Assembly: GCF_003201775.1 (NCBI RefSeq)
Contig: NZ_QJJZ01000008.1
Span: 108,425 to 172,424, forward strand
From: Arenibacter sp. ARW7G5Y1
GTDB lineage: Bacteria > Bacteroidota > Bacteroidia > Flavobacteriales > Flavobacteriaceae
Length of the DNA stretch: 64,000 nucleotides
Direction of reading: 5' to 3'
The notes beneath the pieces are model-generated. The model was not told where the DNA came from and did no database searches. It saw nothing but the letters and a program-made list of their open reading frames with translations. The position numbers were made by a program, and so were the translations under genes. This document shows positions 37,171 to 47,287 of this stretch, in pieces; position 1 is the stretch's first letter, and each line of letters opens with the position of its first letter.

Positions 37171-37184
37171 GTGTGCTTACACAC
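37171..37184. promoter_or_regulatory. Candidate operator 1, GTGTG-CTTA-CACAC
   Basis: A perfect 5 bp inverted repeat with a 4-base centre, followed by TTTT. The same element with centre CCTA is at 37260-37273. Start-to-start spacing is 89 bp. Two near-identical palindromes in front of a LacI-family gene suggest autoregulation. Confidence 0.6.
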
Positions 37185-37252: not shown

Positions 37253-37260
37253 TATATTTG
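37253..37260 (+). promoter_or_regulatory. -7 element TATATTTG directly abutting operator 2
   Basis: TATATTTG fits TAnnTTTG and its last G is the first base of operator 2. Binding of a repressor there would overlap the start of transcription. The -33 TTG is not evident. Confidence 0.5.
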
Positions 37261-37273
37261 TGTGCCTACACAC
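37260..37273. promoter_or_regulatory. Candidate operator 2, GTGTG-CCTA-CACAC
   Basis: Same palindrome as at 37171-37184 apart from one centre base, also followed by a T-run. It lies 46 bp upstream of the LacI-type gene and overlaps its predicted transcription start. Confidence 0.62.
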
Positions 37274-37319: not shown

Positions 37320-38387
37320 ATGGTAAAAAATAAAAAGACCACTATACAGGATCTGGCGGACTATGCCAATGTTTCCATTGGAACCATTGACAGGGTATTG
37401 CACAATAGGGGGAAGGTCTCTTTGGCCAAAAGAAAAAAAGTGGAAGAGGCCATTGAGAAATTGAATTTTAATCCCAATCTCCTCGCAAGAACATTGGCTT
37501 TGGGTAGGCAGTTCACAATTTTTAGTCTGTTTCCGGAAGCAACTTCTTCCCAAAGTTATTGGACTTTGCCGAAAATAGGGGTAGATCAGGGAGTGGAGGT
37601 TTATAGGGATTTTGGATTGGAGCTGGGCTCCTATGAGTACAGTTTGTTCGACGAATCCAGTTTTGTCAAAAATGCCGAGACCATCCTTGGGAAAAATCCA
37701 AGTGGTGTAATTTTGGCCCCACTTTTTGAAAAGGAAAGTTTGTGGTTTGTGAATAAGCTCCAGGAAAGGAATATTCCTTATGTCTTTATTGATGCCAACA
37801 TCCCCAATAAGAAAAACCTAAGTTATATTGGCCCCGACTTAAAGGGTAGTGGATATATAGCGGGAAAATTATTGAATTCAATTTTAGGTCCCACCGAGGA
37901 TATTCTTGTTGTAAACTTGGTAAAGGGGCTGGAGAATAGTGCCCACACAGGAACTGTGGAAAAAGGGTTTAGGGAGTTCTTTAAAAGCAACACGGTATTA
38001 AACAGCAGGAAAATAAATTCGATTACCATACCCACAACCCTGGAAGCAGAAGTGAATAGGGAGCTTACCAAATACTATATTAAAAATCCAGGAACCAAAG
38101 GAGTGTTTGTAAGTAATTCCAGGGCACATCTAATTTCTAGGTACCACGCCCTGCACGAATTGGACATAAAGGTGGTGGGGTTTGATACTGTCCCTGGAAA
38201 TGTGGCTGAATTAAAGAATGGAAATATCGATTATATTATTTCTCAAAGACCTGTTTTTCAAGGGGTAACGGCGGTCAAGACTTTGTTCGATTTTTTTGTG
38301 TATAAAAAATCGCCCGCCGCTGTACAGTATGTGCCTCTGGATATAATTATTAAGGAAAACGTAGATTATTATATTAATTTTCAATAA
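37320..38387 (+). CDS. LacI family transcriptional regulator
   Basis: The 355-residue protein has a LacI-type helix-turn-helix at the N-terminus (TTIQDLADYANVSIGTIDRVLHNRGKVS, about 7-34), the hinge segment FNPNLLARTLALG and a periplasmic-binding-protein-like effector domain (GVILAPLFEKESL, IPYVFIDANIPNKKNLSYIGPDLKGSGYIAGKLL). Effector domains of this type bind sugars. It heads a same-strand run of sugar-metabolism genes; the next start lies 9 bp after its stop. Paired palindromes precede it. Confidence 0.93.
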   Translation: MVKNKKTTIQDLADYANVSIGTIDRVLHNRGKVSLAKRKKVEEAIEKLNFNPNLLARTLALGRQFTIFSLFPEATSSQSYWTLPKIGVDQGVEVYRDFGLELGSYEYSLFDESSFVKNAETILGKNPSGVILAPLFEKESLWFVNKLQERNIPYVFIDANIPNKKNLSYIGPDLKGSGYIAGKLLNSILGPTEDILVVNLVKGLENSAHTGTVEKGFREFFKSNTVLNSRKINSITIPTTLEAEVNRELTKYYIKNPGTKGVFVSNSRAHLISRYHALHELDIKVVGFDTVPGNVAELKNGNIDYIISQRPVFQGVTAVKTLFDFFVYKKSPAAVQYVPLDIIIKENVDYYINFQ

Positions 38388-38396
38388 GCCTAAGGA

Positions 38397-39482
38397 ATGA
38401 AAAAAGAAATTAAATTGGGGTTGCCCGTTTGCACGCTTTTGCTGTTGTTGCTCGGTTCTTGTGGAAATAGTAAGTCCAATAAGAACAAGGCAGATTCTGC
38501 GCAAGAAGTGGAAAAACCAGCTATTAGGGTGGAAAATAAAGTGTCCGAACAAAAAGTGGATGTCTACTTTGGGGATGAATTATTTACTTCCTACATCTAC
38601 CCTGATAATATTATGAAGCCGTGTTTGTGGCCCATAGTGACATCGGAAGGTACGGAAATTACGCGAAAATATCCCTTGAAGAGCGTAGCCGGAGAGCGTG
38701 CAGATCATCCGCACCACATTGGAATGTGGATGAATTACGGAGATGTAAACGGTATTGATTATTGGGGGCATTCAGAGGCTACCCCGAAAGATAGGAAGGA
38801 ATTTAGTGGCGTAATTAGGCATCAAGAGGTGGTTGGGACCAAGGCTGATGATAGCAAAGGGACCATTCGCGTCAAAACCAAGTGGGAAGCTGGCGGTCGG
38901 ACCCAAATTACGGAAGACATAGATCTTCACTTTATGGATAGGGGCAAGGTCAGGATCATTGATTGGATAAGTACATGGACGGCCCAAGAGGATATTTTAT
39001 TCAAAGATACCAAGGAAGGTATGTTTGCCATTAGGGTGAGTCGTGAACTGGAACTGCCATCGGACGATCCACTAATGCTAACGGATGCACATGGAAATCC
39101 TGAAACTATCAAAGTAATTAATAATGATGTGGTTTCGGGAGATTATCTAAGCAGTGAAGGAATTACCGGTGGGGATGTTTGGGGTACCCGCGCCAAATGG
39201 ATGAAACTTTTTGGAAAATATAAAGACGAAAAAGTTGCCGTGGTGATTCTGGACCATAAAAAGAATCCGGGTTATCCGGCCTATTGGCATGCCCGAGGCT
39301 ATGGCCTTTTTGCCGTAAACCCATTGGGGCAGCATGTATTTTCGGACGGCAAGGAATCAATGAACCTGAGCTTAAAGAAGGGCGATTCTGTTCGTTTCGC
39401 GTTTCGCACCTTAGTGTGTTCGGGGGAAGTTTCCAACGAGGAAATCAATAAACTTGGGCTGGAATTTTCCAATCTGTACTAG
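38397..39482 (+). CDS. DUF6807 (PmoA-like) family lipoprotein
   Basis: The 361-residue protein has a type II signal (LLLLLGSC, Cys22) and the DUF6807 fold with hallmark HPHHIGMWMNYGDVNGIDYWGHSEATP and, near the end, YPAYWHARGYGLFAVNPLGQHVF. Members sit in sugar loci of Bacteroidota and Planctomycetes with Gfo/Idh/MocA and DUF1080 genes; the biochemical role is not settled. It lies nine bases after the lacI-type gene, so it belongs to the regulated run. Confidence 0.88.
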   Translation: MKKEIKLGLPVCTLLLLLLGSCGNSKSNKNKADSAQEVEKPAIRVENKVSEQKVDVYFGDELFTSYIYPDNIMKPCLWPIVTSEGTEITRKYPLKSVAGERADHPHHIGMWMNYGDVNGIDYWGHSEATPKDRKEFSGVIRHQEVVGTKADDSKGTIRVKTKWEAGGRTQITEDIDLHFMDRGKVRIIDWISTWTAQEDILFKDTKEGMFAIRVSRELELPSDDPLMLTDAHGNPETIKVINNDVVSGDYLSSEGITGGDVWGTRAKWMKLFGKYKDEKVAVVILDHKKNPGYPAYWHARGYGLFAVNPLGQHVFSDGKESMNLSLKKGDSVRFAFRTLVCSGEVSNEEINKLGLEFSNLY

Positions 39483-39538
39483 CCCTTTTTAAGTAAATAG
39501 GAGATAAACAATACAATAAATTATCATATTTGGATAGC

Positions 39539-40891
39539 ATGGAAACAAATTCAAACTCGAGAAGAAGTTTTATAAAAAAAACGGCTGCCAGTTCGGCCCT
39601 AATTGCGGCCGCAGGAATGCTACCTCAATTTAGCGCTAAAAGCTATGCGCGAATTCTAGGTGCCAACGACCGAATTAATGTCTCCATGATGGGGGTCAAT
39701 AGTAGGGGAAAGGCATTGGCGCAAAATTTTGCAAGCCAAAAGAACAGTGAGGTAATCCATGTCTGTGATGTGGATAGTAGGGCTATAATGAATTGTGTGT
39801 CCGCCGTTAAAAAAAGGCAGGGAAGGGATCCGAAAACTTATGCCGATTTCCGCAAGTCCTTGGAAAGTAGGGATGTAGACGCCATGGTAATTGCCGCACC
39901 CGATCATTGGCACGCTCCGGCATCGCTCCTGGCCATGGAGGCAGGAAAACATGTGTATGTAGAAAAACCATGTAGCCACAACCCCAATGAGGGAGAAATT
40001 TTGGTGCAGGCCGCAAAGAAATATGGAAAGGTGATTCAAATGGGGAACCAGCGCCGCTCTTGGCCCAATGTGGTCGAAGGTATAAATGCCTTGAAGTCCG
40101 GTGCCATAGGACGGGTATATTTTGGTAAGGGTTGGTATACCAATAACCGGCAATCCATTGGAATAGGGAAGGAGGTTGAGGTTCCCAAGTGGTTGGACTG
40201 GGATCTTTGGCAAGGTCCGGCCCCTAGAAAAAATTATAAGGACAATATTGTGCATTACAATTGGCATTGGCTATGGCATTGGGGTACGGGGGAAGCCCTT
40301 AATAACGGTACCCATATGATAGATTTACTGCGTTGGGGTATGCAGGTGGACTATCCGATAAAGGTGAGTTCCAACGGTGGTAGGTATAGGTACCAGGACG
40401 ATTGGGAGACGCCGGACACCCAAGTGATTAATTTGGATTTTGCAGACGGAATGTCCATGTCGTGGGAAGGTAGAAGCTGTAACGGAAACCCTATAGAAGG
40501 TAGTGCTGTAGGAGTAATGTTCTATGGGGAAAACGGTAGTATGCTTATCCCTGGAGGCAATAGCTATTCCATTTTCGATTTGGAGGGAAAACTGGTAAAA
40601 GAAGTGAAAAATACCCAAGAAATAGATCCTAGAAACAATTCCAATCCTGCCGAACTTTTGGATGCCTTGCACATACAAAACATGTTCGACGCCATTTTGA
40701 GCGGGTCCAGCCTGAATGCTGATATAGACTCGGGACATAAAAGTACCTTGTTGGTGCAGCTGGGAAATATAGCACAGCGTACCGGTAGGTCGTTGAATAT
40801 AGATTCCAGGAATGGACATATTCTGGAGGATAATGATGCTCAAAAATTATGGAGCCGTTCTTATGAAAAAGGATGGGAAATGAAATTATAA
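39539..40891 (+). CDS. Exported Gfo/Idh/MocA oxidoreductase (Tat-type signal), 450 aa
   Basis: The N-terminus NSRRSFIKKTAASSALIAAA is a twin-arginine-type signal (RRSFIKK). A Rossmann domain (INVSMMGVNSRGKALAQNF, VIHVCDVDSRA, VIAAPDHWHAPASLLAM) with the EKP motif (YVEKPCSHNP) and a C-terminal sandwich (GTHMIDLLRWGM with catalytic His) follow. Family members oxidise or rearrange sugars with tightly held NAD(H). The start is the ATG at 39539; TTG at 39530 would add three residues. It ends 9 bp before the next homologue. Confidence 0.92.
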   Translation: METNSNSRRSFIKKTAASSALIAAAGMLPQFSAKSYARILGANDRINVSMMGVNSRGKALAQNFASQKNSEVIHVCDVDSRAIMNCVSAVKKRQGRDPKTYADFRKSLESRDVDAMVIAAPDHWHAPASLLAMEAGKHVYVEKPCSHNPNEGEILVQAAKKYGKVIQMGNQRRSWPNVVEGINALKSGAIGRVYFGKGWYTNNRQSIGIGKEVEVPKWLDWDLWQGPAPRKNYKDNIVHYNWHWLWHWGTGEALNNGTHMIDLLRWGMQVDYPIKVSSNGGRYRYQDDWETPDTQVINLDFADGMSMSWEGRSCNGNPIEGSAVGVMFYGENGSMLIPGGNSYSIFDLEGKLVKEVKNTQEIDPRNNSNPAELLDALHIQNMFDAILSGSSLNADIDSGHKSTLLVQLGNIAQRTGRSLNIDSRNGHILEDNDAQKLWSRSYEKGWEMKL

Positions 40892-40900
40892 AATATAAAT

Positions 40901-41896
40901 ATGGCAAATAGAAGATCGTTTTTGGAAAAGTTGGGCAAAGGGGCAGCCTTTTCAACATTGGCCCTGTCCGTACCCACAACTATGTTTTCACAATTGAAAT
41001 CAGGAGAAAACCTGAAAAAGAAAACAAAAATTATTGGAATTATTGGTGCTGAAAACTCGCATACTAGAGGTTTTGGGAAAATGTTCAATAAAGATAAGGA
41101 GTTTCCTGGATGGGAAGTTAAATTCGTTTGGGGGGAAAAAGACGAGTATGCCCAACTGGCTAAAGATGAGGGGGGTATTCCTATTATAGTAAAGGATCCT
41201 TTGGAAATGATGGGCAAGATAGACGCGTTGATCGTAGACCATAGACATGGCGACCTTCATCTGGATGCGGCCCTACCCTTTGTAAAGGCGGGAATCCCCA
41301 CCTTTGTGGACAAGCCTTTTTGTTATAGCAGTCAGGCCGCAAAATTGTTTCTGGAAATGGCGAGATCTGTCGGTACTCCGGTAACATCCTATAGTTCCAT
41401 AGCGCATAGCCACGGTACGGATGATATGAGGAAGCAATTGGAAGAAATGAAGGAAATAAATCAAATTACCTGTTATGGGAAGGCAGATATTAATTCTATT
41501 TATGGAGGCTTTTTCTTTTACGGGGTACATTTGGTAGAACCTCTTATCTATCTTTTTGACGAGAAAATTGTTTCCGCGAAGTTCAACAAAAATGAAAAGG
41601 AAAACCTAAACAGTACTGCCAGCTTGATATTTGAAAACGGAAGGATGGCTACTTTGGTAATTACTACCAAAAAGTACGGGTGGCAGACCTTTGTTGAAAC
41701 CGAGGAAGGAGTGGTGGAATTAAAGTCGCGAGTGAAAACCGTTGGTCCCGATAAAAATTATGTAGACATGGTAACCATGTTCAGTACCGGTAAGGAACCC
41801 CGCAGCCATGAGAGTATCATACATGGTATTGCCGTTCTGGAAGCGCTTCAAAAATCCATAATTTCCGGTAAGTGGGAATCCGTAGAACTAGGATGA
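40901..41896 (+). CDS. Exported Gfo/Idh/MocA oxidoreductase, 331 aa
   Basis: The N-terminus ANRRSFLEKLGKGAAFSTLAL carries RRSFLEK and a hydrophobic stretch, again Tat-like. The NAD domain IIGIIGAENSHTRGFGKMF is atypical (GAENS instead of GxGxxG), with VDKPF as the EKP motif and GVHLVEPLIYLFDEK in the C-terminal domain. It is more diverged and shorter than its neighbour, so a distinct substrate or partner role is likely. Its stop overlaps the start of the DUF1080 gene. Confidence 0.88.
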   Translation: MANRRSFLEKLGKGAAFSTLALSVPTTMFSQLKSGENLKKKTKIIGIIGAENSHTRGFGKMFNKDKEFPGWEVKFVWGEKDEYAQLAKDEGGIPIIVKDPLEMMGKIDALIVDHRHGDLHLDAALPFVKAGIPTFVDKPFCYSSQAAKLFLEMARSVGTPVTSYSSIAHSHGTDDMRKQLEEMKEINQITCYGKADINSIYGGFFFYGVHLVEPLIYLFDEKIVSAKFNKNEKENLNSTASLIFENGRMATLVITTKKYGWQTFVETEEGVVELKSRVKTVGPDKNYVDMVTMFSTGKEPRSHESIIHGIAVLEALQKSIISGKWESVELG

Positions 41897-42711
41897 TGAT
41901 GTATAATAAGCAGTCGTATCCATTGTTTTGGACAGTGGCTATAATATGCGCCTTGGTGTTTCTTGGGTGCAAGAACAAAAAGACAAAGATAGCAAAGGAG
42001 TCAGGGACGCCCATTGTACTTAATAATAGTCTAACAGATTTGGAGAAGGAGCAGGGCTGGGAGCTGCTTTTTAACGGAGTATCCCTGAATGGTTGGCAAG
42101 GTTTGGGTAGAGAGGATGTTCAAAGCGAACTGTGGAAAGTTGAGGATGGTACCATACGAAAACTGAATAGTGGCGAGGTTCCTTCCATGCCCGATGGCCA
42201 ACCCATGGAGGGTGGCGATTTAATGACCGTGGATACTTTTGAGAATTATGAATTGTATTTTGAATGGAAAATATTAAAAGCGGGGAACACAGGCTTAAAG
42301 TACAATGTGTCCGAGGAAATGTCGCAAAAGTTCGGTTCCCAATATGCTGCCCTTGGGTTTGAATACCAATTGCTGGATGATTCGGATACCCTTTATGCAG
42401 GCAAATTAAAGCCTTCCCAATACACTGGGAGCCTTTATGATTTGATTGCAGCTGAAAACGCAATGGTAAGACCAATTGGGGAGTTTAACTCTAGTCGCAT
42501 ATTGATCAATGACAAACACGTGGAGCACTGGCTAAACGGAAAAAAGGTAGTTTCTTATGAATTTGGGTCCCAGCATTTGGATTCCTTGTTTAAAAAGAGC
42601 AAATATGTCGATATCCCAGGGTTTTTGGATAAGAGAAATGGCCATATTGTGCTACAAAACCATAAGGACGATGCCTGGTTTAGGAATATCAAGATTCGTA
42701 GAATTAAATAG
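41893..42711 (+). CDS. DUF1080 (3-keto-disaccharide hydrolase type) lipoprotein
   Basis: The 272-residue protein has a lipoprotein signal (VFLGC) and a concanavalin-like DUF1080 fold: GWELLFNGVSLNGWQGLG, LMTVDTFENYELYFEWKILKAGNTGLKYNVSE, EHWLNGKKVVSYEFGS, and GHIVLQNHKDDAWFRNIKIRRI at the end. Some family members cleave 3-keto glycosides formed by Gfo/Idh/MocA dehydrogenases, which matches the gene order. The start overlaps the previous stop in ATGATGATG (41893 or 41899). Confidence 0.9.
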   Translation: MMMYNKQSYPLFWTVAIICALVFLGCKNKKTKIAKESGTPIVLNNSLTDLEKEQGWELLFNGVSLNGWQGLGREDVQSELWKVEDGTIRKLNSGEVPSMPDGQPMEGGDLMTVDTFENYELYFEWKILKAGNTGLKYNVSEEMSQKFGSQYAALGFEYQLLDDSDTLYAGKLKPSQYTGSLYDLIAAENAMVRPIGEFNSSRILINDKHVEHWLNGKKVVSYEFGSQHLDSLFKKSKYVDIPGFLDKRNGHIVLQNHKDDAWFRNIKIRRIK

Positions 42712-42772
42712 GTTGATTAGTTTTTAGATAAAATTGATTCTGGTCAGTTAAGTGTAAAATCAATAAATAGTT

Positions 42773-43990
42773 ATGAAATTTAAATATACACCCATTATAG
42801 TGCTGTTCTTTTTTAGTAATATGGCAATATCACAATCCAAGGATGCCCAGGCAATAGAGGGTGTTTTGTATTCCGATGAAGGATGGGTTTCCCTTTCTAC
42901 CAATACAGGAAAGATTTCGGGAATAAACCGCCTTGACAAAGAGGCCAATGTTTCAAAAATGTATATGTCCCCTGGCTTGATCGATGTCCAGATCAATGGC
43001 TTTATGGGGGTCGATTTTTCTGGTCCCGATCTTACCGTTGAAGGAATACGGAAGGCTACCAAGGCTTTGTGGAAGGTTGGGGTCACCACCTATTTCCCGA
43101 CTATCATTACGAGCGATTTCAAGAGGATGAAAAAGAATTTTGCCATTCTGGCACAGGCACAAAAAGATCCGGAAATAGGAGCTTCCATTCCCGGTTTTCA
43201 TTTGGAAGGTCCTTACATATCTCCACTGCCGGGATTTAGGGGAGCGCATTTGGAGAAGTACATAAAAAATCCGGACTGGGAAGAATTTCAGGAATTACAA
43301 AGGGCGGCCAACAACGGTATAAAGTTAATAACCTTGGCCCCTGAATTGGAAGGTGCCATTCCCTTTATCCGCAATTGTGTAGCCAATGGTATTATAGTGG
43401 CACTTGGCCATCACAATGGAAGTGCCAAAGATATAGAACGTGCCATAGATGCAGGGGCTAAAATGGCCACCCATTTGGGCAACGGTTGTGCCAACGAGAT
43501 CAACAGACATCATAATCCGCTTTGGCCGCAGTTGGCCGATGATAGGATTACGCCCAGTATTATAGCGGACGGATTTCATTTGACCAAGGAGGAAGTACGG
43601 AGTTTTTATAAGGTAAAAGGCCCCAATAAAACTATTTTGGTATCTGATGCCTTGGATCTGGCAGGCTTGCCACCAGGAGAATATACCCGAGGTGAACGTA
43701 CCCTATTGCTGACCCCCAATGTGGTGAAATTGCCCAAGGAAAATGTACTGGCCGGGGCGGCATCACCAATTAGTGCCTGTGTAGGTGTAATTATGGATTA
43801 TACACAATGCACTCTTAAAGATGCCATTCAAATGGCAAGTACAAATCCCGCAGAATTGTTCTCATTAAATGACCTAGGCGAAATAGGACAAGGAAAAAGG
43901 GCAGACCTTATACTTTTTCAGCTTGAAGATAAGAAGGTGGTTATATATAAAACATTTGTGTCCGGAGAATTGGTTTATTCCAAGGAGTAG
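42773..43990 (+). CDS. Signal-peptide-bearing NagA-like N-acetyl-sugar deacetylase
   Basis: The 405-residue amidohydrolase has the NagA layout: DVQINGF (Gln73, Asn75, as in E. coli NagA), metal ligand Glu145 in FHLEGPY, His213 in LGHHNGS, His234 in THLGNGC and Asp292 in VSDALDLAG. Unusually it starts with an export signal (MKFKYTPIIVLFFFSNMAIS), which cytosolic GlcNAc-6-phosphate deacetylases lack. A periplasmic location argues for an unphosphorylated N-acetylamino sugar. The phosphate-binding region is also changed (INRHHNPLWPQ). Substrate is inference. Confidence 0.85.
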   Translation: MKFKYTPIIVLFFFSNMAISQSKDAQAIEGVLYSDEGWVSLSTNTGKISGINRLDKEANVSKMYMSPGLIDVQINGFMGVDFSGPDLTVEGIRKATKALWKVGVTTYFPTIITSDFKRMKKNFAILAQAQKDPEIGASIPGFHLEGPYISPLPGFRGAHLEKYIKNPDWEEFQELQRAANNGIKLITLAPELEGAIPFIRNCVANGIIVALGHHNGSAKDIERAIDAGAKMATHLGNGCANEINRHHNPLWPQLADDRITPSIIADGFHLTKEEVRSFYKVKGPNKTILVSDALDLAGLPPGEYTRGERTLLLTPNVVKLPKENVLAGAASPISACVGVIMDYTQCTLKDAIQMASTNPAELFSLNDLGEIGQGKRADLILFQLEDKKVVIYKTFVSGELVYSKE

Positions 43991-44060
43991 TTCCTTGTTG
44001 TCTTCCATAATGTTCGATTTAGAGGGACTTGTTTAAAAATTGATTATTTAAAAGCAGTAT

Positions 44061-45302
44061 ATGGGCAATAAATCATTGATTAAGAAAATTCTATTGGGAC
44101 TAAGCGCGGTAGGCCCGGGGCTTTTTCTTATTGGGTATAATATTGGAACGGGTAGTGTTACCACAATGGCCAAGACGGGTGCCGAATACGGTATGAGCCT
44201 TTTTTGGGCATTGGTACTGTCCTGCGTTTTTACCTATATTTTAATGGTTGCCTATGGCAAGGTTACCTTGGTTACGGGAAGGACTGCCCTGTTTAATTTT
44301 AAACAGGAGTTTAAATGGGGCTGGATACTTTCGCTTTATATTATACTAGTGCTCATAATTGGCGAATTATTGGCTCTTATGGGGGTAATGGGAATTGTGG
44401 CCGATTTGGTGCAGGAAGGGGTGCGCTTGGCGTATAACGGAGTGGTAATTCAAAGAGGGTGGATCATCCTGTTTTTTGTGATAATCCTGTCATTCTTTTT
44501 ATGGTTTGGCCGGTATAAGGCCTTTGAAAAAGTATTGACGGTTTTGGTTATTTTGATGGGACTGTCCTTTGTAGTCGTTTTTATAATGGTCCGTCCCGAT
44601 ATGGCCGATATTATGTCCGGCATGGTTCCGAGTATTCCGGACACACCAGGTGCCTTGGGGCTTATTGCTGCCATTACGGGAACCACTTGTTCGGCGGCTG
44701 TTTTTGTAATGAGAAGTACGGTGGTGGCGGAAAAGGGATGGGGTATAAATGATCTAAAAAAGGAAAAAACCGATGCTTTTGTCTCGGCTTTTATGATGCT
44801 TTTATTGAGCGGTGTCATCATGGCCGTTGCCGCGGGAACCTTGCACATTTCGGGCATGAAACTAGACAATACGGTAGAGATGATATCCCTCTTTGAGCCT
44901 TTGGGGGGCAAATTGGCAGCTTTTGTTCTTATAATAGGGATTACAGGAGCCGGACTTTCCACTATATTTCCGATTGTGCTAATAGCCCCATGGCTAGTTG
45001 CCGATTATAGGGGGACTCCAAGAAACATTCATTCCACCTCGTCCAGAATGCTGATATTCGGCGCTTTGGTGTTTGCTTTTGGGACCGTTTTTTTAGAGGA
45101 AAGGCCACCGGCGCTTATGGTGTTTTCCCAGGCTTTTCAGGCTTGTATCCTGCCAGCCGTAGCGGTACCTATGTTTATTTTGATAAACAGACATAAATTG
45201 ATGGGCAATAACAAGGCTGGTACCAAGCTTAATTTAGGCCTAGTGGCCGTAATCCTATTTTCACTGCTTACCACCTGGTTTGCAATTGCAGAATTTATTT
45301 AA
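44061..45302 (+). CDS. Nramp-fold membrane carrier lacking the metal-binding motifs
   Basis: The 413-residue protein has about 11 membrane helices and clear Nramp landmarks (GPGLFLIGYNIGTGS, TMAKTGAEYG, GRYKAFEKVL, LIAAITGTTCSAAVF, GAGLSTIFPI). The canonical TM1 DPGN is replaced by G29-T30-G31-S32 and the TM6 MPH by S211-A212-A213, so the known divalent-metal ligands are gone. It lies between a NagA-like and a NagB-like gene, 10 bp before the latter. An organic, probably amino-sugar, substrate is my inference. Confidence 0.85.
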   Translation: MGNKSLIKKILLGLSAVGPGLFLIGYNIGTGSVTTMAKTGAEYGMSLFWALVLSCVFTYILMVAYGKVTLVTGRTALFNFKQEFKWGWILSLYIILVLIIGELLALMGVMGIVADLVQEGVRLAYNGVVIQRGWIILFFVIILSFFLWFGRYKAFEKVLTVLVILMGLSFVVVFIMVRPDMADIMSGMVPSIPDTPGALGLIAAITGTTCSAAVFVMRSTVVAEKGWGINDLKKEKTDAFVSAFMMLLLSGVIMAVAAGTLHISGMKLDNTVEMISLFEPLGGKLAAFVLIIGITGAGLSTIFPIVLIAPWLVADYRGTPRNIHSTSSRMLIFGALVFAFGTVFLEERPPALMVFSQAFQACILPAVAVPMFILINRHKLMGNNKAGTKLNLGLVAVILFSLLTTWFAIAEFI

Positions 45303-45312
45303 AAAAGTAACA

Positions 45313-46074
45313 ATGGAAAGATCATTTCAAATCGAAAATTTAGCAGTAAAAACCTATGGGGAAACAAAGGCCATGGGAGCAGCTGCGGCCGATTATGTGG
45401 CTGGAAAATTACGGGCGGCCATAAACAAAAAGGGTGCAGCCAATATTATATTGGCTACGGGAGCATCCCAGTTTTCGTTTTTAGAGGCGCTGCAGACCAA
45501 GGAAATTGATTGGGGAAAGATAACGGTATTTCACTTGGATGAATACAAAGGCATATCCGAAGCCCATCCCGCTAGTTTTAGAAAGTATCTTAAAGAACGT
45601 ATTTTGAATAGGGTAGCACCTAAAAAGATATATTTCTTAAATGGCGATGCACCAAATTTGGAATTGGAAATCAAAAACTATGAAGAGGCGTTGCAGGCAC
45701 ATCCAATAGACATTGCCTGCATTGGAATAGGTGAAAATGGACATATAGCCTTTAATGATCCCGCAGTGGCCGACTTTAAAGACCCCAAATTGGTAAAGGT
45801 GGTAGAGTTGGACGAGGCTTGTAGAAACCAACAACTTGGAGAGGGCTGGTTTCCAACTTTTGACGATGTGCCCAAAGAGGCCCTTACGCTTACCATTACC
45901 GCCATTATGAGTTGTAAGGCCATTAGTTGTGTAGTACCCGACGAAAGAAAGGCACAGGCCGTTTATAATAGCCTTTATGGGGTTATCAGTACCAACTGTC
46001 CGGCTTCCATACTAAGGACCCACCCCGAATCCGTCCTGTTTTTGGATAAAGGTTCGGCATCCATGATAAAATAA
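45313..46074 (+). CDS. Glucosamine-6-phosphate deaminase-like protein (NagB family)
   Basis: The 253-residue protein follows the NagB fold: ILATGASQFSFLEAL (phosphate loop), VFHLDEY (Asp76 and Glu77), and GIGENGHIAFNDP. The last motif changes the catalytic triad: Asn142 replaces the usual Asp before His144 and Asp149 replaces the usual Glu. Related forms with GENGHIAFNDP exist outside classical NagB. The start is the ATG at 45313; the upstream open frame overlaps the carrier gene. It is the last gene of the run. Confidence 0.88.
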   Translation: MERSFQIENLAVKTYGETKAMGAAAADYVAGKLRAAINKKGAANIILATGASQFSFLEALQTKEIDWGKITVFHLDEYKGISEAHPASFRKYLKERILNRVAPKKIYFLNGDAPNLELEIKNYEEALQAHPIDIACIGIGENGHIAFNDPAVADFKDPKLVKVVELDEACRNQQLGEGWFPTFDDVPKEALTLTITAIMSCKAISCVVPDERKAQAVYNSLYGVISTNCPASILRTHPESVLFLDKGSASMIK

Positions 46075-46693: not shown

Positions 46694-47287
46694 ATGAAAC
46701 AACTAATTCTAGGTATGCTGCTATTAACGGTGCTTCCTTTTATGGCGCAAGAAACTAACAAAGAAGTTCCTCCCAAGGAGATTCAAATCAAAACTGCTGT
46801 TTTGCCCGCCCCGGATGAAAAAAAGGATGGTGCTATGGTTTATGGATATAATAGTTCCGGGGAACTGGTTGTTTTGCGAAAGGGAACCAATAATCTAATT
46901 TGTATAGGGGACAACCCCAATAAGGATGGAATCAATGTGGCATGTTATTCCAAAAAACTGGAACCCTTCATGGCCCGTGGAAGAGAGCTGTCCGCGAAAG
47001 GCCTTACCGGGGAGGAGCGGGAAAAAATTCGAGAAAAGGAAGTGGGTACTGGTAAATTGAAAATGCCCAAGGAGCCAAGTATGATGTACGTATATTATGG
47101 GAAATCCGAGGATTATGATATTACTACCGGAGCGCTGCAGAACGGTAAATTTAGATATGTTATTTACACTCCGTTTGCCACCACGGAATCTACAGGATTG
47201 CCGGACAAGCCCCATGCCCCTGGGATGCCCTGGTTAATGGATCCAGGAACGCATAGGGCGCACATTATGGTGGGGCCTTTTGATTAA
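46694..47287 (+). CDS. Secreted protein of unknown function
   Basis: The 197-residue protein has a signal peptide (MKQLILGMLLLTVLPFMAQ) and a mixed alpha/beta body (MVYGYNSSGELVVLRKGTNNLICIGDNP, SMMYVYYGKSEDYDITTG, YVIYTPFATTESTGLPDKPH, PGTHRAHIMVGP). I do not recognise the family. The regions around it (46485-46693, 47288-47538) hold no other gene. Confidence 0.75.
   Translation: MKQLILGMLLLTVLPFMAQETNKEVPPKEIQIKTAVLPAPDEKKDGAMVYGYNSSGELVVLRKGTNNLICIGDNPNKDGINVACYSKKLEPFMARGRELSAKGLTGEEREKIREKEVGTGKLKMPKEPSMMYVYYGKSEDYDITTGALQNGKFRYVIYTPFATTESTGLPDKPHAPGMPWLMDPGTHRAHIMVGPFD

Follow-up and report, generated by a model that had tools for sequence, protein, structure and literature searches.

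A candidate LacI-controlled amino-sugar operon of Arenibacter with a predicted exported NagA-type deacetylase and an Nramp-fold carrier devoid of metal ligands

In the 64,000-nucleotide stretch of the Arenibacter sp. ARW7G5Y1 genome analyzed here, hereafter the window (contig NZ_QJJZ01000008.1, positions 108,425 to 172,424, of a genome of 5.7 Mb), eight open reading frames on the plus strand at window positions 37320-46074 are, judging from their sequences, best explained as an operon under LacI control for the catabolism of an N-acetylated amino sugar, either free or as a glycoside. They encode a LacI-family regulator, a DUF6807 protein, two Gfo/Idh/MocA oxidoreductases (GFO1 and GFO2), a DUF1080 protein, a NagA-type deacetylase, an Nramp-fold membrane protein, and a NagB-like deaminase/isomerase (Table 1). 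This reading builds on what we observed of gene content, order, and conservation, of the likely compartments of the products, of the lost metal ligands and retained fold of the Nramp-type protein, and of an exchange of carriers among related loci that goes with the compartment of NagA. In the mechanism that we regard, taken as a whole, as probable on balance, GFO1 would use bound NAD to oxidize a glycoside at C3, the glycosidic bond would be cleaved where a 3-keto-glycoside hydrolase (at other loci, a GH109 enzyme) is present, and GFO2 would complete the redox cycle by reducing the 3-keto sugar thus released. NagA would strip the acetyl group in the periplasm, the Nramp-fold protein would act as a secondary sugar carrier moving the freed amino sugar across the inner membrane, and the NagB-like enzyme would remove the amino group and isomerize the sugar to a ketose; at loci with a cytosolic NagA, a sodium:solute symporter (SSF) or an MFS carrier would instead import the still-acetylated sugar.

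The original prediction, made from the DNA alone, had proposed deacetylation outside the cytoplasm, then uptake by way of the Nramp-fold protein, and finally cytosolic NagB-like deamination, a sequence of steps now supported by the localization pattern of the enzymes, the ligand loss, the carbohydrate context of the Nramp clade, and the swap of carriers. A cytosolic location would be expected of NagA; we found a signal-like N-terminus in the window protein and in 59/59 orthologues (hydrophobic in 56, Tat-type in 3), all encoded within 6 kb of the carrier. The export test combined hydropathy (cut-off 1.8) and motifs only, with rows cut at contig starts dropped, and the NagA N-termini that we printed resemble ordinary signal peptides. 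A hydrophobic N-terminus was present in 2 of 56 NagB sequences. At an E-value of 0.001, the genome holds no NagA homologue beyond that of the run, and it holds four NagB-family matches.

The exchange of carriers is seen within the genus itself. Three Arenibacter genomes without the window's system (G001, G004, G007), together with one genome that has both (G028), carry a sister locus with a LacI (66-67% identity), a NagB (68-69%), a GFO1 (64-65%), a different GFO2 (25-27%) and, in G004, a DUF1080 protein (66%); its NagA is of a different, cytosolic type (33%) and stands beside an SSF symporter. We extended this comparison to 65 NagA rows, comprising homologues from 392 genomes of the phylum and the NagAs of the co-occurrence search described below except that of G068, each classified by the carriers within 4.5 kb. 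All 14 NagAs near an SSF symporter and all 8 near an MFS carrier are cytosolic, while both of those near this Nramp clade are exported; a further 40 rows, all cytosolic, have no assigned SSF, MFS, or Nramp carrier, some of them with unannotated neighbors of multiple transmembrane segments. Because the SSF- and MFS-linked NagAs are thus cytosolic without exception (22/22) whereas every readable Nramp-linked NagA is exported (61/61, the 59 orthologues plus L190 and L205), the Nramp-fold protein is probably the importer of the deacetylated amino sugar, as far as sequence comparison can tell. This exchange is the strongest evidence that we have for the role of the carrier. SSF identity was assigned by phmmer for most rows and by Pfam for L184, L191, and L193, and MFS identity by Pfam for all eight; L197 and L204, whose mechanical starts extend into the neighboring gene, were scored as cytosolic, L197 and L242 were assigned manually in the tree, the exported set was listed by hand, and two stretches that yielded no NagA row under the filter (L219, L246) were left out of the 65. 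At one SSF-type locus (L192), the symporter and cytosolic NagA are directly followed by matches to glucuronate isomerase, KdgK, KDPG aldolase, SDR, and mannonate dehydratase, a set that would suit a hexosamine-uronate polymer.

A branch with 100/100 support divides the exported rows of the NagA tree into two groups, both encoded beside this Nramp clade. The large group has Sec-like signals and neighbors a cytosolic group mostly near SSF or MFS carriers; the small group, four rows from Alphaproteobacteria and genome G267 (100/100), has Tat-like signals and lies inside an otherwise cytosolic clade (100/99). The simplest reading is that NagA export was gained twice, each time apparently tied to this carrier, gain rather than loss being unproven because the tree is rooted at its midpoint.

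The carrier is a member of the Nramp family by sequence and by its LeuT-type fold. Its AlphaFold2 model (pLDDT 81) has TM1 broken at residues 27-30 and TM6 at residues 209-212, and best matches EleNRMT (7qia, TM-score 0.84), with Deinococcus Nramp (DraNramp) also matched. Compared with Escherichia coli MntH, its TM1 motif has changed from DPGN to GTGS and its TM6 motif from MPHV to SAAV, so that the ligating Asp and Asn of TM1 and Met of TM6 are all missing. The protein nevertheless passes the NCBIfam model NF037982, named for divalent metal transporters (82 bits, cut-off 50), and proteins of the GTGS clade are therefore likely annotated as such. The genome has six PF01566 matches, five above the cut-off. 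Among 137 Nramp rows taken from this genome and its relatives by similarity to the window protein, 112 have GTGS, 19 have GPGT with VPYN (one further VPYN row is gapped in TM1), and 5 have GPGS; none of the 137 retains DPGN. The GPGS rows represent a third ligand-less class (L039; L042, 17480-18700; L043, 8049-9296; L175, 8904-10217), found near Gfo/Idh/MocA genes in L039 and L042, adjoining two genes in L042 and L043 (both without a clear Pfam family in L043), and lying immediately beside the amino-sugar carrier in L043/L076.

In the Nramp tree, the GTGS proteins group together as a clade (100/99), within which three large branches are well supported; the root and the deepest splits are unsettled because MntH, the single metal transporter included, sits on a very long branch, with a warning of long branches meeting. 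The window protein belongs to what we term the amino-sugar branch (83 GTGS/SAAV rows). The alginate branch (15 rows, including a single AAPT row) has neighbors of the Chondroitinas_B (PL6-type), Alginate_lyase2 (PL7-type), and PL17-type families as well as cupin KdgF-like, PfkB, KDPG aldolase, and SDR genes, and the AAPT row itself (L148) neighbors 2-keto-3-deoxygalactonokinase and gluconolactonase. A ten-row branch is accompanied by GH20 in 10/10 cases, by a NagB-like gene in 9/10, and by GH2 or GH88 in most, and the Nramp protein of L051 neighbors glucuronate isomerase and mannonate dehydratase. Genes of a panel of sugar-related neighbors occur in the carrier's run in 75/83 amino-sugar rows and 28/29 other GTGS rows vs 2/19 GPGT rows, figures that serve as a description and not as an independent test because the panel was drawn mostly from GTGS-clade loci. 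The 19 GPGT controls have a pathway of their own (pxpABC), and the rows include genomes fetched twice (L043 and L076; L138 and L135). The sole exception among the 29 (L050) neighbors SusD and a mannose-6-phosphate-isomerase-like gene. Elsewhere in the Arenibacter genome (L037, C4:260500-279500), a second ligand-less Nramp gene closes an alginate-type operon of SusC, SusD, GntR, MFS, SDR, PFK-like, KDPG aldolase, and Nramp genes; the same Nramp branch in L046, L049, L052, and L053 comes with alginate lyase-type genes and no matched MFS gene.

We lean toward the view that the whole GTGS clade turned from metal to sugar transport, with branches that would carry amino sugars, DEH, glucuronate, 2-keto-3-deoxygalactonate, and GH20-freed hexosamines, with a TM6 motif that varies by branch, and with a deacetylase exported at least twice in the amino-sugar branch, making free amino sugar for the carrier. 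The pattern suggests that sugar carriers of a largely unrecognized class exist within the Nramp family. The GPGT class has a different association: at least two of pxpABC share the stretch in 19/19 rows and in the gapped row too, compared with 0/83 GTGS/SAAV rows and 1/6 GTGS/GAVI rows (neighbors Pfam-checked in L038 and L171), and these shared stretches place the GPGT/VPYN class with the PxpT/YcsG group by neighborhood. The Arenibacter genome contributes one such locus (L038, C3:277000-296000), where a GPGT/VPYN gene beside LamB/YcsF and carboxyltransferase-domain genes (pxpABC) encodes what is, by its neighbors, a 5-oxoproline carrier of the PxpT type in Bacteroidota.

Scanning GTDB genomes confirmed at least 589 relatives, of which the best 80 were kept as 80 loci; these are mostly from Bacteroidota, joined by small numbers from KSB1, Calditrichota, Chlorobiota, Alphaproteobacteria, Phycisphaerae, and Fodinibius. 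The original prediction had called for the same gene order to be sought in other Bacteroidota and in Planctomycetes, and the order GFO1-GFO2-NagA-Nramp-NagB indeed reappears in many Bacteroidota genera, while the GFO pair is placed downstream in L119, a planctomycete locus. A KSB1 locus (L132) keeps the same order with GFO1 at 33% only, and Alphaproteobacteria retain Nramp-NagA-NagB. In the 73 loci other than the seven Arenibacter orthologues, NagA is found in 54, NagB in 49, both in 45, GFO1 in 33, GFO2 in 28, and DUF1080 in 6; over all 80, DUF1080 occurs in 13, and DUF6807 is confined to the seven Arenibacter orthologues. Class-III aminotransferase genes lie near the carrier, with no NagB-like gene matched nearby, in L044, L090, L111, and L115 (by Pfam) and in L123 (by clustering, on the other strand), which suggests another way to remove the amino group and fits a free-amino substrate. 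Beside the alphaproteobacterial Nramp-NagA-NagB genes of L117, L120, and L121 lies, on the other strand, a conserved, exported-looking protein of about 443 residues whose L120 copy has no Pfam match.

Co-occurrence in related genomes, which had been set beforehand as a test capable of refuting the prediction, was borne out. In a search of 100 genomes, own included, the carrier (at least 79% identity), NagA (at least 54%), and GFO1 (at least 76%) are present in the Arenibacter sp. ARW7G5Y1 genome and in the same 14 of 99 others, namely 11 of the 17 of the genus plus G028, G035, and G054. Two of these, G028 and G035, encode GFO1 and GFO2 as a pair at a site far from the carrier, accompanied in G035 by a LacI gene of its own, so that co-occurrence there is no by-product of linkage. 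A chance neighborhood was rejected on this co-occurrence, and the run is not a chance assembly because its core recurs in order in many Bacteroidota genera.

The residues of the two Nag-type enzymes bear on the substrate. In NagA, E131, H195, H216, and D273 are metal and catalytic residues, whereas R227 lies on the phosphate side and contacts the 6-phosphate. Equivalents of E131, H195, H216, R227, H251, and D273 are present in 64/64 rows and those of H143 and N219 in 61/64 (61 rows distinct). An exported NagA lacking the phosphate-binding Arg had been a candidate explanation; it was rejected because the Arg is conserved throughout the full alignment, and the argument for an unphosphorylated substrate drawn from its loss was dropped with it. 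NagA narrowly passes its curated family model. In the NagB-like protein, Gln replaces Arg172, which in NagB binds phosphate, and Asp replaces Glu148 in 60/60 rows (56 distinct), Asp72, His143, and Lys208 being kept; the protein belongs to the fold family and falls short of the curated NagB model (TIGR00502, 142.6 bits, cut-off 236.9). In the wider NagA sample, the R227 column holds Arg or Lys, and a Gln-type NagB lies near 21 NagA rows and an Arg-type near 7. Because the NagA rows with the two kinds of partner sit apart in the NagA tree, the one exception being L227 (Arg), which neighbors the Gln group, the Gln-type NagB appears to mark a NagA-NagB system that is largely distinct and that works with Nramp, SSF, or MFS carriers alike. 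GH109-type genes in the carrier's run of five loci (L085, L112, L135, again as L138, L139, and L140; Pfam-checked in L085 and L112) hint at N-acetylgalactosamine (GalNAc) as the substrate, and the GH20 neighbors of the sister branch hint at N-acetylhexosamines.

For the redox steps, GFO1 is a relative of the glycoside 3-dehydrogenase BT2158 outside that equivalog (BT_2158_fam, 160.3 bits, cut-off 750), with 8tdf and 8tdh as its best PDB matches and an RR motif near the start in 39/39 orthologues of at least 45% identity. GFO2 is divergent in sequence, with an RR motif in 33/33 orthologues (at least 50%), and its AlphaFold2 model (pLDDT 86) has the Gfo/Idh/MocA fold, best matched by 1,5-anhydrofructose reductase and inositol dehydrogenase, with NAD-dependent glycoside hydrolases lower. 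The DUF1080 protein, a clear family member in the window, matches 4jqt, 8tda, and others. The original prediction had placed oxidation, cleavage, and deacetylation all outside the cytoplasm: exported deacetylation is supported, but the 3-keto-glycoside hydrolase occurs in only 6 of the 73 loci outside the Arenibacter orthologues, so that cleavage by the DUF1080 hydrolase is not part of the core of the system. DUF1080 was accordingly rejected as the system-defining gene, since most loci lack it.

Several observations weigh against our interpretation. The export test is crude, E. coli NagA scoring 1.76 against the cut-off of 1.8 (the window NagA scores 2.44), and NagA retains its Arg227 equivalent in every row. 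With the cut-offs used, 13 of the 73 loci have none of NagA, NagB, GFO1, and GFO2 on the same strand within 6 kb; in five of these the carrier starts less than 1 kb from a contig end, in three others (L118, L125, L135) the carrier's neighbors include a Tat-type amidohydrolase and an alpha/beta hydrolase-like gene, and in L072 and L110 no sugar gene was identified near the carrier. The scarcity of the DUF1080 hydrolase counts on the same side, as do one relative (G061) that has the carrier at 63% without NagA, and one exported NagA (L194) that has GFO1, GFO2, and NagB but no Nramp gene within 4.5 kb.

These points must be weighed together with four rival explanations. That the run is a loose neighborhood of sugar genes and not a single pathway seems very improbable to us: gene content does differ between loci, and GFO1 and GFO2 lie elsewhere in G028 and G035, but the genes are separated by short gaps and overlaps, their order is conserved, their presence is identical across the 14 other genomes even when unlinked, and one operator-like pair lies upstream. 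NagA-type enzymes use metal, and the Nramp-fold protein might import a divalent metal (for example Mg2+ or the metal of NagA) while another carrier encoded elsewhere takes up the sugar. The protein is clearly of the Nramp family and passes the divalent-metal-transporter model, and YcsG, whose Bacteroidota neighborhood counterparts lack DPGN, is reported to be a Mn2+ importer in Bacillus subtilis (PMC10448178). Against this stand the loss of four residues, Asp and Asn in TM1 and Met and His in TM6, the company that the GTGS clade keeps with several different sugar pathways, and the SSF and MFS carriers that fill the place of Nramp in equivalent loci; nor would an inner-membrane importer supply a periplasmic enzyme. 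EleNRMT, itself a Mg2+ carrier, has an Asp in the aligned TM1 stretch. We consider metal import quite improbable.

A single-step alternative for the oxidoreductases holds that GFO1 and GFO2 are each redox glycosidases of the GH109 kind, with no C3 oxidation/reduction pair, and that the DUF1080 protein has another substrate. GFO1 is weakly similar to GH109 over the Rossmann domain (2ixa, 1.5e-8), the fold of GFO2 matches the NAD-dependent glycoside hydrolases 8qc8 and 8qc2 among others, and GH109-type genes stand in the carrier's run at the five loci named above; yet the best matches of GFO1 are of the 3-dehydrogenase type, neither protein matches the GH109 C-terminal domain Glyco_hydro_109_C (PF21252), and a DUF1080 enzyme is encoded in the run itself, so that we hold this alternative to be unlikely. 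An acidic amino sugar, bearing a 6-phosphate, a 6-sulfate, or a carboxylate (an amino-uronate), in place of plain GlcNAc or GalNAc, is possible though unlikely. The conserved equivalents of Arg227 and His251 in NagA would suit a phosphorylated, sulfated, or carboxylated sugar; sister Nramp branches go with uronate-type pathways, sulfatase genes occur in 3/83 and glucuronyl-esterase-like genes in 4/83 of the amino-sugar-branch runs, the run of L121 includes an SDR gene, with KdgK matched on the opposite strand, and other strands nearby hold KdgK and aldolase matches in L096 and aldolase and DGOK matches in L076, these last three loci making an acidic sugar slightly likelier. However, the loss of Arg172 from the NagB-like protein speaks against a 6-phosphate, uronate-type panel genes lie in the carrier's own same-strand run in only 1/83 amino-sugar-branch rows, and GH109 at five loci points to neutral N-acetylgalactosamine.

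The preferred route, with C3 redox chemistry, periplasmic deacetylation, and import of the free amino sugar, overlaps with several known systems. The 3-keto pathway of Bacteroides thetaiotaomicron is reportedly the subject of a 2024 paper. The BT2157-region pathway of that species and the lactose pathway of Caulobacter share with the run a glycoside 3-dehydrogenase and a DUF1080 3-keto-glycoside hydrolase; they differ in that the run's deacetylase and carrier are the constant elements and DUF1080 is accessory. In the passages of PMC9007349 that describe it, the 3-keto pathway is known for B. thetaiotaomicron and proposed for Caulobacter, BT2157 is a 3-ketotrehalose hydrolase with CCNA_01705 of Caulobacter in the same context, and NagA, NagB, and an Nramp-fold carrier are not named. 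The nagBA system of E. coli likewise uses a deacetylase of the same family followed by a deaminase/isomerase, and its NagA metal and catalytic residues are conserved in the run; it differs in that the run's NagA is predicted to be exported, that in its NagB-like protein Arg172 is replaced by Gln and Glu148 by Asp, and that the run holds no kinase or phosphotransferase system. In the BT4240-50 locus of B. thetaiotaomicron, GH109 frees GalNAc in the periplasm, but the locus also encodes an MFS carrier and a GalNAc kinase, and the words "deacetylase" and "Nramp" are absent from the main text of the article (PMC11992087).

Among Nramp-type proteins, the closest solved structure belongs to EleNRMT, an Nramp-related Mg2+ transporter that differs from the window protein by its TM1 Asp; to our knowledge, it has no sugar role. 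PxpT/YcsG provides a precedent for an Nramp-family protein with an organic substrate, and deletion of pxpT abolishes growth of Corynebacterium glutamicum on 5-oxoproline (PMC13274462); the window protein belongs to a different clade with a different motif and a different gene neighborhood. The overview figure of the alginolytic systems of Alteromonas sp. 76-1 (PMC6431674) draws an Nramp gene, as in the sister alginate branch, labeled as a metal-ion transporter, and that portion of the article proposes no sugar role for it. Among the open-access papers listed, no title or abstract start proposed sugar transport by an Nramp protein (no search was aimed at periplasmic NagA), and no open-access paper was found that treats alginate lyase together with a divalent metal cation transporter.

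The layout and upstream region of the run complete the description. The eight same-strand genes are all present in the order originally claimed, with gaps by mechanical starts of 9, 47, 9, -25, 61, 70, and -23 bases; GFO1 and NagB more likely begin at later ATG codons (39539 and 45313, respectively), the latter corresponding to the first Met of several NagB orthologues. Pfam agrees with all eight family names first given and with the stated absence of a SusCD pair, a glycoside hydrolase, or a kinase from the eight proteins, and the labels "Tat-type," "signal peptide," and "no metal ligands" hold by simple motif and hydropathy tests. The label "lipoprotein" stands for DUF6807 and is less firm for DUF1080 (lipobox-like motif in 6/13, hydrophobic N-terminus in 13/13 orthologues). 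Upstream, GTGTRNNTACACA has two matches in the window against 0.02 expected by shuffling, and the two candidate operators are the two upstream copies of GTGTGCYTACACA, the sole two in the window. Both are kept upstream of the run in 4/4 aligned Arenibacter sequences, own included, and across the genome a 20-base pattern built on operator 2 occurs with at most two mismatches at these two sites only, and with three mismatches at two other places. Just after the run, at window positions 46694-47287, the Arenibacter orthologues share a gene for a short protein that begins with a signal-like segment and matches no NCBIfam model.

Table 1. Features of the candidate amino-sugar operon and its upstream region (window coordinates)
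Feature	Position	Strand	Evidence
Candidate LacI operator 1 (GTGTGCTTACACA)	37171..37183	+	pattern match and conservation; predicted binding
Candidate LacI operator 2 (GTGTGCCTACACA)	37260..37272	+	pattern match and conservation; predicted binding
LacI-family regulator with Peripla_BP_4 sensor domain	37320..38387	+	PF00356 1.3e-14, PF13407 1.9e-26
DUF6807 lipoprotein, accessory	38397..39482	+	PF14100 9.2e-71; lipobox-like motif in 7/7 orthologues
GFO1, exported Gfo/Idh/MocA oxidoreductase, nearest the glycoside 3-dehydrogenase type	39530..40891	+	PF01408, PF19051
GFO2, second exported Gfo/Idh/MocA oxidoreductase	40901..41896	+	PF01408 2.6e-8
DUF1080 / 3-keto-disaccharide hydrolase, hydrophobic N-terminus, accessory	41872..42711	+	PF06439 8.7e-41
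Exported NagA-type deacetylase	42773..43990	+	TIGR00221 226.4 bits, cut-off 225.65
Nramp-fold membrane carrier without metal ligands (GTGS / SAAV)	44061..45302	+	PF01566 3.3e-58
Cytosolic NagB-like deaminase/isomerase, Arg172-to-Gln subfamily	45280..46074, probable start 45313	+	PF01182 3e-21

If this interpretation is correct, the Nramp fold would carry sugars besides metals and 5-oxoproline, and the natural TM6 variants of the GTGS clade would provide a ready set for studying substrate choice. It would also establish an amino-sugar route in which deacetylation precedes import, the opposite of the textbook order. Inner-membrane sugar uptake may then be misassigned in many sugar loci of the Bacteroidota, alginate loci included.

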